This document shows, in pieces, positions 4,041 to 22,239 of a DNA stretch of 38,035 nt. Origin of the DNA: Chitinophaga pinensis. GTDB taxonomy: Bacteria; Bacteroidota; Bacteroidia; 2-12-FULL-35-15. A program made the position numbers and the translations under genes. Numbering within the stretch: position 1 is the first letter of the stretch; each line of letters opens with the position of its first letter. A model generated the notes under the pieces. That model was not told the DNA's origin. It saw only the letters and a list, made by a program, of their open reading frames with translations, and ran no database searches. The stretch lies in the NCBI GenBank assembly GCA_945885475.1, contig CAMCYR010000031.1, positions 1-38,035 on the forward strand, written 5' to 3'.

Positions 4041-5114
4041 ATGGTAACAACCGATATTACTCCAATTAAAGTTCAGAAATCGAACAACCTTCGAATCAAA
4101 GAACTTGATTATAACAACATCACATTTGGTAAGTTATTTTCTGACCATATGTTTTATGCTGACTTCAAAAATAATGAATGGAGCGATGCTCAGATTGTTC
4201 CTTATGGTCCACTTCTGATGAGTCCTGCAACTTCTGCTTTACATTACGGACAAGCAATTTTTGAAGGAATGAAAGCCTACAAAAATGAAAAAGCTGAAGT
4301 GTTTTTATTTCGCCCATTTGATAATCATAAACGTATAAATATATCTGCAGAACGTATGGCGATGGCTACCATTCCGCAGGAAGTTTTTATGGCGGGCTTA
4401 ACGCAATTGGTTGATCTTGATAGAGACTGGGTGCCTGATACAGACGGTTCATCGCTTTATATCCGTCCATTCATTGTTGCAACGGATGAATTTATAGGTG
4501 TGCGTCCATCCGATAATTATCGTTTTTACATTATTACTTCTCCTGCAGGTAAATATTACAACGAACCGGTGAAAGTGTTGGTTGAAACAAATTATATCCG
4601 CGCTGTTGAAGGTGGAGTAGGGTATGTAAAAGCTTCCGGAAATTATGGACGATCTTTATTCCCCGCTAAATTAGCACAACAAAGAGGTTATCATCAGATT
4701 GTATGGACGGATGCCCGTAATCACCGTTATTTAGAAGAGTCAGGAACAATGAACCTAATGTTTGTGATTGACGATGTGTTGATCACTCCTCCTCTTGGAG
4801 ATACTATTCTTGCCGGCATCACCCGTGATAGCGTTCTTACACTTGCACGTGATTGGAAAATGAAAGTACAAGAACGTAAGATTAGTATTGATGAAGTTGT
4901 CGATGCTCACAAAAAGGGAACACTGGAGGATGCTTTTGGTACTGGCACTGCTGCAACTATCGCTCAGATTGCGCAAATTGGATTCGAAGGTAAAGATTAT
5001 ATACTTCCACCTGCTGAAGGACGCATCTTCTCAAATCGTGTTGCAAAAGAATTGATAGATATCCGAACAGGTAAAGTGCCCGATATCCATAATTGGATGT
5101 ATAAAGTTGGTTAA
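4041..5114 (+). CDS. ilvE: Branched-chain amino acid aminotransferase
   Basis: This is a fold-type IV PLP aminotransferase of 357 residues. The length and motifs match the longer, eukaryote-like BCAT group common in Bacteroidota. It interconverts leucine, isoleucine and valine with their 2-oxo acids using 2-oxoglutarate/glutamate. The PLP-binding lysine is Lys197 in GVGYVKASGNYG. Other family marks are QAIFEGMKAY near 71-80, the LEESGTMN segment, and the GTGTAATIAQI phosphate-binding loop near the C-terminus. The gene stands alone: upstream is a 212-base spacer with a probable promoter, and downstream is a 700-base repeat region. D-amino acid transaminase is unlikely given the length and motif set. 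Confidence 0.92.
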   Translation: MVTTDITPIKVQKSNNLRIKELDYNNITFGKLFSDHMFYADFKNNEWSDAQIVPYGPLLMSPATSALHYGQAIFEGMKAYKNEKAEVFLFRPFDNHKRINISAERMAMATIPQEVFMAGLTQLVDLDRDWVPDTDGSSLYIRPFIVATDEFIGVRPSDNYRFYIITSPAGKYYNEPVKVLVETNYIRAVEGGVGYVKASGNYGRSLFPAKLAQQRGYHQIVWTDARNHRYLEESGTMNLMFVIDDVLITPPLGDTILAGITRDSVLTLARDWKMKVQERKISIDEVVDAHKKGTLEDAFGTGTAATIAQIAQIGFEGKDYILPPAEGRIFSNRVAKELIDIRTGKVPDIHNWMYKVG

Positions 5115-5274
5115 TCTGTTTTTATTCAATTAACAAAAAAACTCCTGAAAAGAAAAGAAACAAAAGTTCAAGAACAAACGATCGCTCCACACAGGCTGCA
5201 CGGCATCGCGTTTGTTCAGTCCTCACGCGCGGCTTCGCAAGATCATTCAGTTTTTGCGACAGTCATTGTAAAGT
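5115..5274. other. Gene-free spacer with GC-rich segment
   Basis: Directly after ilvE there is a purine-rich run (about 5143-5170). A markedly GC-richer segment, about 5178-5238, follows and contains CATCGCG and CACGCGCGG. The purine run AAAAGAAAAGAAACAAAAG resembles the one at 111-130. I see no reading frame or tRNA. It looks like remnant repeat sequence. Confidence 0.5.
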
Positions 5275-5497
5275 ACTCCCAACCGGCATCAGAAAAAACC
5301 ACATAACAAATCAAGCCGTTAAGCAAGCGCGGGCTATAGCAAGAGTCTGTGCTGTCTGAGTATAAGCGGAAATAATGGATAAATAAAATCACCCAGACGA
5401 GTTCACAGAGTCAGAGCGAAACGGTGTAGATTTTTTGTGTTTTTTTCGTAAGCCTTTATTTTTTGCTACTTTTTGATCAAGCAAAAAGGAGAAAAGA
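5275..5497. repeat. 223-bp direct repeat, copy 1
   Basis: This copy is identical to 5526-5748 except for four substitutions by manual alignment. It starts at ACTCCCAACCGG and ends at a hairpin (CTTTTTG 5469-5475, CAAAAAG 5482-5488) plus GAGAAAAGA. No shared open frame is convincing. The near identity implies recent duplication or gene conversion. Confidence 0.93.
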
Positions 5498-5525
5498 TAA
5501 TTTTAATTTCAAATCATTTTTGATG

Positions 5526-5748
5526 ACTCCCAACCGGCATCAGAAAAAACCACATAACAAATCAAGCCGTTAAGCAAGCGCGGGCTATAGCAAGAGTCTG
5601 TGCTGTTTGAGTCTAAGCGGAAATAATGGATAAATAAAATCACCTAGACGAGTTCACAGAGTCAGAGCGAAACGGTGTAGATTTTTTGTGTTTTTTTCGT
5701 AAGCCTTGATTTTTTGCTACTTTTTGATCAAGCAAAAAGGAGAAAAGA
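5526..5748. repeat. 223-bp direct repeat, copy 2
   Basis: This is the second copy at a constant offset of 251 bases, separated from the first by a 28-base AT-rich spacer (5498-5525). The terminal hairpin TTTTTGATCA-AGCAAAAAG is retained. The rest of the spacer, 5749-5815, is a T-rich run leading into the 3' end of the minus-strand J-domain gene. Confidence 0.93.
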
Positions 5749-12458: not shown

Positions 12459-13532
12459 ATGAAAAAAATTTACTTTTTATTAGCAACATTCCTTTTAACG
12501 GGAAGCCTTTTGAAAGCTCAGGACACTTTGCTTTTTGAAGATTTTGAATTAGCAAGATTTTACGATACAGTTTTAATTGATTGTAATCTTACAGGTACAA
12601 CACCTCCGGGAGTTGCAGGAGATGCCAATTGGTATTCATTGGATTCTGATGGAGATGTGGATGGATCTTCCGGTGGCGGTCGACCTGACGGTTGGTTTGC
12701 TGTTCAACCTTATTCTGTTGTGGATCAATACGAAACAGTATACGGTACAACAGCTGCTCCGGATACAAATACAGTTATTGCTGCAAACTCATGGACAGTA
12801 AATTTGTTTCCTCAGGTAAACTGGTTGATCACAAGTAGCATTCAATTAGGTGCTGCTGATACTTTATTCTGGAAATCTGCACCATTCCAAACACCTCGTT
12901 ATTGCGATGGATACGAAGTGCGTTTATCTACCACTACAAATGCAGATAATACCGCAACGGGATTTTTCTCCAATCTACTATATACTGTTGCCGAAAATAC
13001 AGTACTTGGAACAGATACGACGTATAGCACTTTTACTTTTTCTCCTCCAACTGGATTTATCCATGGATTAGATGGTAACAATATTGATGTTGCAGGAACA
13101 GGTAATGCTCACAGAGGTCAATTACGCCAGTTTTCAGTTCCCTTAAATGCGTATGCAAATCAATCAGTTTATATTGCTTTTCTTCATAACTCAACAGACG
13201 ATAACTTAATCTCTATCGATGATGTAATGATCCGTGGTACAGCTGCTGCTTCTGGTATCAGCGGAAATAATGCTGCTGATCTTGGATTGAACTTGTTCCC
13301 AAATCCTGCTACTGATAATGTTCAGGTGAACTATACCTTAACTTCTGAAACAACAGTTACAATTAATTTGTATGATGTAACAGGTAAATTGCTTGCAACA
13401 GATTCTAAAGGTGAACAAGCGAAAGGACGTCACTTTGCGCACATCAATACGACTGATCTAGCAAAAGGTTTTTATACTGTTAAAGTATCAACAAACGCTG
13501 GACAAAGTACTTCTAAATTGATCGTAAGATAA
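12459..13532 (+). CDS. Secreted T9SS cargo protein, cleaved-adhesin-like with type A sorting domain
   Basis: This 357-residue protein has a signal peptide (about 1-20, ending LKAQ). The main domain opens with LFEDFE and closes with SIDDVMIRG, the pattern of the cleaved-adhesin/choice-of-anchor-J beta-sandwich, which often binds surfaces or glycans. Residues from about 277 form a type A T9SS C-terminal sorting domain: LNLFPNPATDNVQV, then INLYDVTGKLL, and the final KGFYTVKVST and KLIVR. The protein should cross the outer membrane by T9SS and be attached or released after domain removal. No T9SS apparatus genes are nearby. It is a single gene with its own promoter and a strong terminator. Confidence 0.88.
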   Translation: MKKIYFLLATFLLTGSLLKAQDTLLFEDFELARFYDTVLIDCNLTGTTPPGVAGDANWYSLDSDGDVDGSSGGGRPDGWFAVQPYSVVDQYETVYGTTAAPDTNTVIAANSWTVNLFPQVNWLITSSIQLGAADTLFWKSAPFQTPRYCDGYEVRLSTTTNADNTATGFFSNLLYTVAENTVLGTDTTYSTFTFSPPTGFIHGLDGNNIDVAGTGNAHRGQLRQFSVPLNAYANQSVYIAFLHNSTDDNLISIDDVMIRGTAAASGISGNNAADLGLNLFPNPATDNVQVNYTLTSETTVTINLYDVTGKLLATDSKGEQAKGRHFAHINTTDLAKGFYTVKVSTNAGQSTSKLIVR

Positions 13533-21797: not shown

Positions 21798-21835
21798 AAA
21801 AAAGGGCGGTATTCATGTGAATATCGCCCTTTTTT
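21798..21835. terminator. Bidirectional terminator
   Basis: AAAAAAGGGCG plus GTATTCA (21798-21815) pairs with TGAATAT plus CGCCCTTTTTT (21818-21835), with one G-T pair and a 2-base gap. It sits between convergent genes ending at 21779 and 21847, with T tracts usable on both strands. Confidence 0.9.
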
Positions 21836-21846
21836 GTACTGTTTTT

Positions 21847-22239
21847 TTATTTAATATGGATCTGAAAAGACGGATATTTTTTATCTGCTTTCCCGTCACT
21901 TGCTATAATTTCTTCAATTAGGATCTTGTTTGCAGGACTTGCCTTTTTTAATGCTTCTAAAGCAGAAGGACTAATTTGACTGCCGGTGCAAGAATAATCA
22001 GTAAAAGAGCCTTCTTTTTTTACTTCTGCATTTGGAGCAAGAATAGAGATTGTGAATGATTTTATAGTCAAATTTTTATTTATCGGAATCAGAACGCTGC
22101 AGTTACTAAGATCAGCCTGCTTGATTGAACCTTCTGTTGTTCCGCAAATTGCAAATGATACATTATCTTGCGTTTGAGCAACAGCAGAAGTTGCAGCGAG
22201 CAATGTGAAAAGTGCGAATGTAGAAATTGATTTTTTCAT
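21847..22239 (-). CDS. Small exported protein resembling the GldM C-terminal domain
   Basis: This 130-residue protein has a clear signal peptide (about 1-21, ending VAQ). The mature part recalls the C-terminal domain of the T9SS/gliding protein GldM. It has a strand pair (KSFTISILAP, then AEVKKEGSFTDYSC), a helix with SPSALEALKKASPANKILIEEI, and a final SDGKADKKYPSFQIHIK. In GldM the matching part reads as charged helix, then 'GD-x-hydrophobic-hydrophobic-E-x-I', then 'DGK-x-x-x-x-P'. Two Cys (CGTTEG, NCSV) and a third (YSC) may form a disulfide. The rest of GldM is absent. The similarity is recognised by eye only. A minus-strand TACGTTTG -7 box lies at 22284-22291. Confidence 0.65.
   Translation of the reverse strand: MKKSISTFALFTLLAATSAVAQTQDNVSFAICGTTEGSIKQADLSNCSVLIPINKNLTIKSFTISILAPNAEVKKEGSFTDYSCTGSQISPSALEALKKASPANKILIEEIIASDGKADKKYPSFQIHIK

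Follow-up and report, generated by a model that had tools for sequence, protein, structure and literature searches.

The locus described here raises the question of what the terminal domain of GldM, a core component of the T9SS, does when it is encoded alone as a small exported protein. The window, meaning the whole stretch of 38,035 nucleotides that was analysed, is a contig of Chitinophaga pinensis. The preliminary description had placed an open reading frame at 21847-22239 with the strand left unstated; these coordinates proved exact, the gene lies on the minus strand, its start codon is ATG and the product (P0001) is 130 aa long, while the plus-strand frame of the same interval contains several stops. 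The features of the gene and its surroundings are as follows.

21847-22239, minus strand: stand-alone GldM-D4 protein, 130 aa, soluble and exported, assigned from the ORF, GldM homology and purifying selection
22174-22239, minus strand: Sec signal peptide, about residues 1-22 (MKKSISTFALFTLLAATSAVAQ), without a lipobox, recognised by eye
21850-22158, minus strand: GldM D4-like domain, residues 28-130, aligned to PorM 404-516 by VIA-align and to GldM 432-537 by hhalign
22099-22146, minus strand: C32 to C47 cysteine pair, co-conserved in the family, putative disulfide
21994-22053, minus strand: hairpin region, residues 63-82 (20 residues), equivalent of the PorM hairpin with the PorN-contacting S460, variable in length in stand-alone proteins
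21798-21835, no strand: terminator-like stem-loop between the P0001 and Vut_1 genes, one found against 0.4 expected, a consensus match only

By eye, the signal peptide ends near AVAQ and no Cys that would mark a lipoprotein lies near the cleavage site. Q22 is kept in at least 90% of the 33 family members, and the signal-peptide region has low confidence in the AlphaFold model. Neither PF18962 nor PF13585, the domains searched for as marks of T9SS cargo, was matched. An M23 peptidase gene lies 272 bp upstream on the same strand, and the P0001 gene is convergent with a Vut_1 transporter gene, which itself follows biotin-type genes. When related loci were searched with P0001 alone, one 90% ortholog was recovered and nothing else. 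The gene order M23 peptidase, D4 protein, Vut_1, aminotransferase is common to the four genomes that hold an ortholog (the window's own, G000, and G007, G031 and G006), with one 257-aa ORF on the opposite strand between the M23 and D4 genes in G031 and G006, and the four orthologs form one clade in the D4 tree (support 99/97). The gene is maintained under purifying selection: dN/dS (NG86) was 0.17 for G000/G007 and 0.11 for G031/G006, and 0.10 for the mature part in both of these close pairs; the value of 0.24 for G000/G031 comes from a distant pair in which synonymous sites are saturated.

The protein had been likened by eye to the terminal domain of GldM and was thought to consist of this domain alone behind a signal peptide, and both proposals were borne out, the domain occupying residues 28-130 of 130 and the match extending to the last residue. 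The likeness is carried by pairwise search, profile-profile comparison and a predicted structure. A search of 59 related genomes with P0001 matched GldM-length ORFs (414-548 aa) in 11 of them, with E 3.9e-6 for the true GldM of its own genome and 4.6e-6 to 7e-4 for the others, besides many smaller relatives. The profile search proposed in the preliminary description gave a divided result. One-sequence scans of P0001 against Pfam and NCBIfam returned zero families each at E <= 10, with no match by the gathering score of GldM_4th (PF12080), and a PDB sequence search returned no PorM with either P0001 or the family profile. Comparison of a profile of 33 family members with one of five GldM sequences gave a probability of 96.7 and E 3.2e-10, the family aligning end to end on GldM 432-537, last residue included, which is D4 exactly and nothing else. 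Graded intermediates were also found, since GldM_4th is weakly matched in 6/33 family members (best E 0.012) and exceeds its cut-off (27.6 vs 24.6 bits) in a divergent 146-aa stand-alone relative (L096:7345-7785).

The AlphaFold2 model of P0001, built from the family alignment, had a pLDDT of 81.3 and a pTM of 0.70. Foldseek ranked PorM/GldM chains in all of the first seven places, with modest E-values (4.7e-4 to 0.017) and TM scores of 0.48-0.60 on the query. The suggested structural check against the GldM periplasmic domains likewise came out in favour of the likeness: VIA-align placed PorM 404-516 best (Z 13.1, 97 residues, 1.9 A, 13% identity), with GldM at Z 10.5 and the first unrelated chain at Z 6.3; no other family came near the D4 matches among the matches listed, which excludes nothing. 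At the superfamily level of GldM_4th, whole-domain homology was thus found by profile-profile comparison and the D4 fold in the predicted model. Because the pairwise, profile-profile and predicted-fold evidence and the stand-alone relative above the cut-off agree, the homology of P0001 to GldM D4 is judged remote yet firm, and sequence and predicted fold together show P0001 to be a secreted, stand-alone paralogue of D4 of GldM/PorM. In a tree of D4 sequences (85 rows, 120 columns) the deep forks are weak and the free D4s of the genus cluster; the starred branches force at least two label changes, which is compatible with one origin or several.

Membership of P0001 in GldM/PorM as a whole protein (TIGR03517) was rejected because D1-D3 are lacking and the locus is a different one; GldM_1st (PF12081) was not matched and only the signal peptide precedes D4. 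Assignment to a gldKLMN cluster was rejected as well, the neighbours being the M23 peptidase and Vut_1 genes and the organism's own GldM lying with GldN on contig C40. The GldN of this genome is at L001:579-1448. As a separate observation, two GldN-type genes stand in tandem behind the organism's own GldM (L044:3751-4665 and 4787-5656), and the same is seen in several members of the genus.

That the organism uses the T9SS, as had been deduced from a cargo gene in the window, was substantiated. The gene at 12459-13532 on the plus strand carries PF18962 (55.5 bits), and the genome contains GldM, SprA and 117 type A sorting domains. GldM_1st was detected in 279/295 genomes of the class and in 35/36 of the genus (10/10 and 25/26); the sole exception in the genus, G022, is 75% complete and has SprA, at least 149 sorting domains and no free D4. 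Occurrence of a free D4 in a genome without T9SS had been named as evidence against the link, and none was found in what is a low-power test, GldM being present in all 29 genus holders. GldM was also present in 11/11 genomes outside the genus with a match of free-D4 size. In G197, a class genome of 85% completeness without a GldM_1st match, a 288-aa frame matches D4. Co-occurrence of D4 with GldM is weak evidence because nearly all relatives have GldM anyway.

Free D4 genes are expanded within the genus. The family profile detected about 56 of them in 29 of the 36 genomes, with up to five per genome and some in tandem, a count that includes short frames and weak matches; copy number tracks genome size (Spearman 0.73). 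A draw of 295 genomes from the class, 10 of them from the genus, gave a frame of at most 175 aa with E <= 0.001 in at least 11 of the 285 others, and a draw from the phylum gave matches in at least 2/247 genomes, of which one is the genome of the window and the other matches only in part. Both counts are lower bounds because few candidates were scored per genome (at most 14 and 17, respectively). In G158, one of the 11 class genomes outside the genus, the D4 match covers the N-terminal part only. Two adjacent free D4 genes in G027 (L036:4025-4420 and 4756-5151) encode apparently identical proteins, which points to either recent duplication in tandem or an error of the assembly.

If a free D4 has kept the binding function of its parent domain, the contact surface should be the place to look. 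According to PMC5790014, D4 of PorM needs no other part of the protein to bind PorN in a two-hybrid test, and the isolated domain is a monomer. PMC12421860 reports a cross-link between PorM S460C and PorN A241C and an AlphaFold prediction in which two PorN copies flank one D4 of the PorM dimer. S460 maps to the tip of the first D4 hairpin (by inferred numbering, offset 9). This hairpin has 13-14 residues in 21/21 GldM D4s and 20 in P0001; among 33 free D4s it ranges from 12 to 30 residues (mean 17.4), and 10/33 keep a short hairpin of 12-13 residues. Both C32 and C47 are present in 27 of the 33 free D4s, neither in four and one only in two, counts that come from related sequences and so are not independent; neither cysteine occurs in 21/21 GldM D4s. 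A C32-C47 disulfide probably closes the P0001 fold, because the two residues are co-conserved in free D4s and missing from GldMs. We read these alignments as suggesting that the D4 scaffold was retained while the contact loop was diversified, as would be expected of a family whose members differ in their GldN-type partners, or of one that has changed partners altogether.

The neighbourhoods of free D4s in the genus are mixed. In G023 a free D4 gene is followed immediately, after 96 bp and in the same orientation, by a GldN-like lipoprotein gene, an order that mirrors gldM-gldN; this single case supports the idea that different D4 members bind different GldN-type partners. Across the 36 genomes the presence of free D4s and of free GldN-like proteins was not associated (both in 18; Fisher p 0.38, odds ratio 0.27), with genome size as a confounder of the counts, and obligate pairing was rejected. 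No free GldN-like protein was found in G006 and G031, two of the four holders of the window's ortholog, which rules out a fixed GldN-like partner for this ortholog group unless incomplete assembly hid one; the G031 assembly is broken into about 540 contigs and showed not a single GldN match. In G009, G010, G019 and G028 an S8 protease gene with a type A sorting domain stands 22-76 bp upstream of a free D4 gene and in the same orientation. A sorting-domain gene lies directly upstream of 6/53 unique free D4s and of 22/568 other genes (p 0.025; the 568 control genes were not de-duplicated across overlapping loci), and p rises to 0.33 once this ortholog group is counted once (3/50). A gene-order link of free D4s to T9SS cargo was rejected on the loss of this enrichment. 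In six genomes (G001, G009, G010, G011, G032 and G033; loci L025, L028, L029, L039, L072 and L109) a free D4 lies between nuoA and nuoB, of which Pfam identified nuoB in 5/6 loci and nuoA in 3/6; two of these D4 genes overlap nuoA by 10 bp. The placement may reflect either a function outside the T9SS or mere co-expression with respiration.

Other re-used parts of GldM and GldN were found in the genus, with genome counts of at least one for D3-D4 lipoproteins, five for D4-D4-OmpA proteins, 24 for GldN-like lipoproteins and five for PorP/SprF-GldN-like fusions. Their loci are listed below.

L096:3669-5225, L097:3721-5274, L098:4899-6452, L099:5182-6735 and L100:4565-6118: D4-D4-CRD-OmpA proteins
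L022:844-1383 and L119:368-922: free GldN-like lipoproteins, examples, the second from the window's own genome
L155:3200-4216: GldN-like protein with two tandem domains
L151:1983-3353, L152:2055-3449, L153:3267-4646, L154:1921-3336, L165:3587-5017 and L170:3086-4462: PorP/SprF-GldN-like fusions

Tandem D3-D4 exported proteins of 219 and 232 aa, lipoproteins by eye, occur on contig C12 of G026, and a similar pair (240 and 216 aa) on contig C42 of G212, from another family. By Pfam cut-offs, D3 and D4 both passed in the two L043 proteins and in L103:1641, and D4 only in L103:2437. The D4-D4-OmpA exported protein (517-518 aa; G009, G010, G019, G028 and G032) combines two D4-like domains, a carboxypeptidase-regulatory-like stretch (CRD) and an OmpA domain. 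Three of the five were scanned, and GldM_4th was above its cut-off in L097, just below in L099 and absent in L096; the first D4-like domain was detected by the family profile only. All five loci read, with names given by eye, murA, thioredoxin, D4-D4-OmpA, grpE, dnaJ and a further exported protein, in which GldM_4th is above the cut-off in G032 and weak or absent in the other four. A GldM_1st ORF (522-564 aa) was observed 21-34 kb away on the same contig in G009, G010, G019 and G032.

Free GldN-like lipoproteins, mostly of 170-200 aa and with the lipobox recognised by eye, occur in 24/36 genomes. Two single-domain examples fall below the Pfam GldN cut-off (18.3 and 22.7 vs 23 bits) and the double-domain protein passes it (28.1 bits); an AlphaFold model of the lipoprotein was poor (pLDDT 48.9, two-row alignment) and was left unused. 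PorP/SprF barrels with a C-terminal GldN-like domain were found at six loci in five genomes (twice in G002, and in G013, G018, G023 and G027), and Pfam confirmed both of the two that were scanned (PF11751 at 205 and 203 bits, with 2e-60 in one; PF19841 at 44.3 and 43 bits, cut-off 23). All six have an upstream repeat-type ORF on the same strand (336-808 aa, the starts of which may lie beyond the stretch examined); in the one that was scanned, PKD-like repeats precede a C-terminal type B sorting domain. Genomes with D4-D4-OmpA proteins and those with PorP/SprF-GldN-like fusions did not overlap among the loci examined.

A further protein of the window's own genome was noted on contig C8 (L119:5746-7899, 717 aa). 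By eye its HWPGA membrane repeats are GldL-like; GldM_1st is above the cut-off, and the tail, of SpoIIE phosphatase type, matches NF038263 over 449-717 at a score below the cut-off of that model. The protein looks like a motor-derived sensor. A 416-aa relative on contig C28 (L120:5683-6933) adjoins, by eye, a PadR-like gene. Free GldM D4 proteins, PorP/SprF-GldN fusions and GldL-SpoIIE proteins were not found described in the titles and abstract openings of the open-licence literature.

The best explanation, held tentatively and at somewhat less than even confidence, is that P0001 is a soluble periplasmic adaptor or occupancy factor that docks on a GldN-type surface. After Sec export it would fold as a soluble periplasmic Ig-like module and dock through its D4 face on the GldKN ring or track, or on a GldN-like domain of a lipoprotein or PorP/SprF carrier; the GldN-type partner of each family member would depend on its variable hairpin. 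Lacking D1-D3 and any transmembrane helix, P0001 would act in this way and not as a rod that transmits force. The adaptor reading is favoured by the homology and fold of P0001, by the sufficiency of PorM-D4 for PorN binding and the S460C-A241C cross-link (PMC5790014 and PMC12421860), by the GldN-like lipoproteins, the G023 adjacency and the PorP/SprF and OmpA fusions, and by the S8 protease gene upstream in four genomes, the purifying selection and the kept neighbourhood of the gene itself. Against it stand the unconserved hairpin length, the missing association of D4 with GldN-like proteins, the lack of a GldN-like match in G006 and G031, the singularity of the G023 case, the lost cargo enrichment and the nuo-operon group. 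The preliminary description had instead suggested that a free domain could cap or compete with GldM, or have another binding role; as a competitor it would take the GldN site of GldM D4, leaving fewer engaged motors. PorN binding by PorM-D4 alone (PMC5790014), the PorM D4 fold of the P0001 model and the GldM-sized hairpin in 10/33 free D4s agree with such a competitor, yet the contact hairpin, constant in GldM, is variable in the family and 20 residues long in P0001, most family members have the cysteine pair that is missing from GldM, identity to PorM D4 is only 13%, and several diverged copies per genome (up to five) are unlike one conserved inhibitor; we consider this unlikely. The related GldM and GldN parts in the genus suggest an adaptor no less than a competitor.

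It is quite possible, if somewhat doubtful, that P0001 is a repurposed Ig-like domain of GldM D4 descent with a periplasmic partner outside the T9SS, e.g., a protease, complex I or a small ligand. The six nuoA-nuoB placements, the family-specific cysteine pair with the variable hairpin, and the mixed neighbourhoods, including the position of the window copy between an M23 peptidase and a vitamin transporter, point to repurposing, but the genus has related parts in fusion with T9SS components (PorP/SprF), and GldM accompanies free D4s in all 29 genus holders, though the latter is nearly uninformative. A generic beta-sandwich that resembles D4 by convergence, with no GldM kinship, is very improbable: the absence of one-sequence Pfam or NCBIfam matches and the modest Foldseek E-values (best 4.7e-4) are outweighed by the end-to-end profile match exactly on D4 (E 3.2e-10), the PorM/GldM chains in the top seven Foldseek rows, the gap in Z (13.1 vs 6.3) and the graded intermediates, one stand-alone protein among them above the GldM_4th cut-off.

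Beyond the adaptor reading of P0001, the GldM D4-GldN contact may have become, in this genus, a plug-and-socket kit that couples adhesin carriers, cargo or cell wall to the proton-driven track, a speculation that we regard as rather improbable. The plugs would be free D4s, D3-D4 lipoproteins and D4-D4-OmpA proteins, the sockets GldN-like domains, either on free lipoproteins or built into PorP/SprF barrels, and hairpin variation would decide which plug fits which socket. Research on the T9SS and on gliding has yet to explain how GldM passes force on to the ring, track and carriers of the outer membrane, and a genus with many loose or re-fused D4 and GldN copies provides natural experiments: its variable hairpins can show what makes the D4-GldN contact specific. 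Should free D4s bind GldN, they could also serve directly as genetic inhibitors or tags of the motor. Such loose pieces of motor and ring may also let the genus hitch other envelope proteins to the motor. In our view this broader collection of parts taken from GldM and GldN is a more interesting finding than P0001 alone, which belongs to the free-standing paralogues of a known motor domain that are expanded in one genus.

Compared with the D4 domain of GldM/PorM (PF12080; PDB 6EY4, 6EY5, 6EY6 and 7CMG), P0001 is alike in fold, full extent, C-terminal position and periplasmic location. It differs from GldM/PorM in having neither D1-D3 nor a transmembrane helix and in its identity of 13-15%, and from their D4 in its longer contact hairpin and in a cysteine pair missing from 21/21 GldM D4s. 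The T9SS protein PorE consists of TPR, WD40, CRD and OmpA-like parts. The D4-D4-CRD-OmpA proteins of five genomes of the genus resemble it in the C-terminal half but have a pair of D4-like domains where PorE has TPR and WD40; NF052230 covers mainly their OmpA part, far below its cut-off, and P0001 has no OmpA part. In Flavobacterium johnsoniae, a disulfide links PorP/SprF carriers to the GldK track (PMC12635249). Those carriers connect an outer-membrane barrel to a motor-driven ring or track, and the fusions of the genus would do likewise. In some PorP/SprF barrels of the genus a GldN-like domain is fused on directly, which may take the place of the F. johnsoniae disulfide link.
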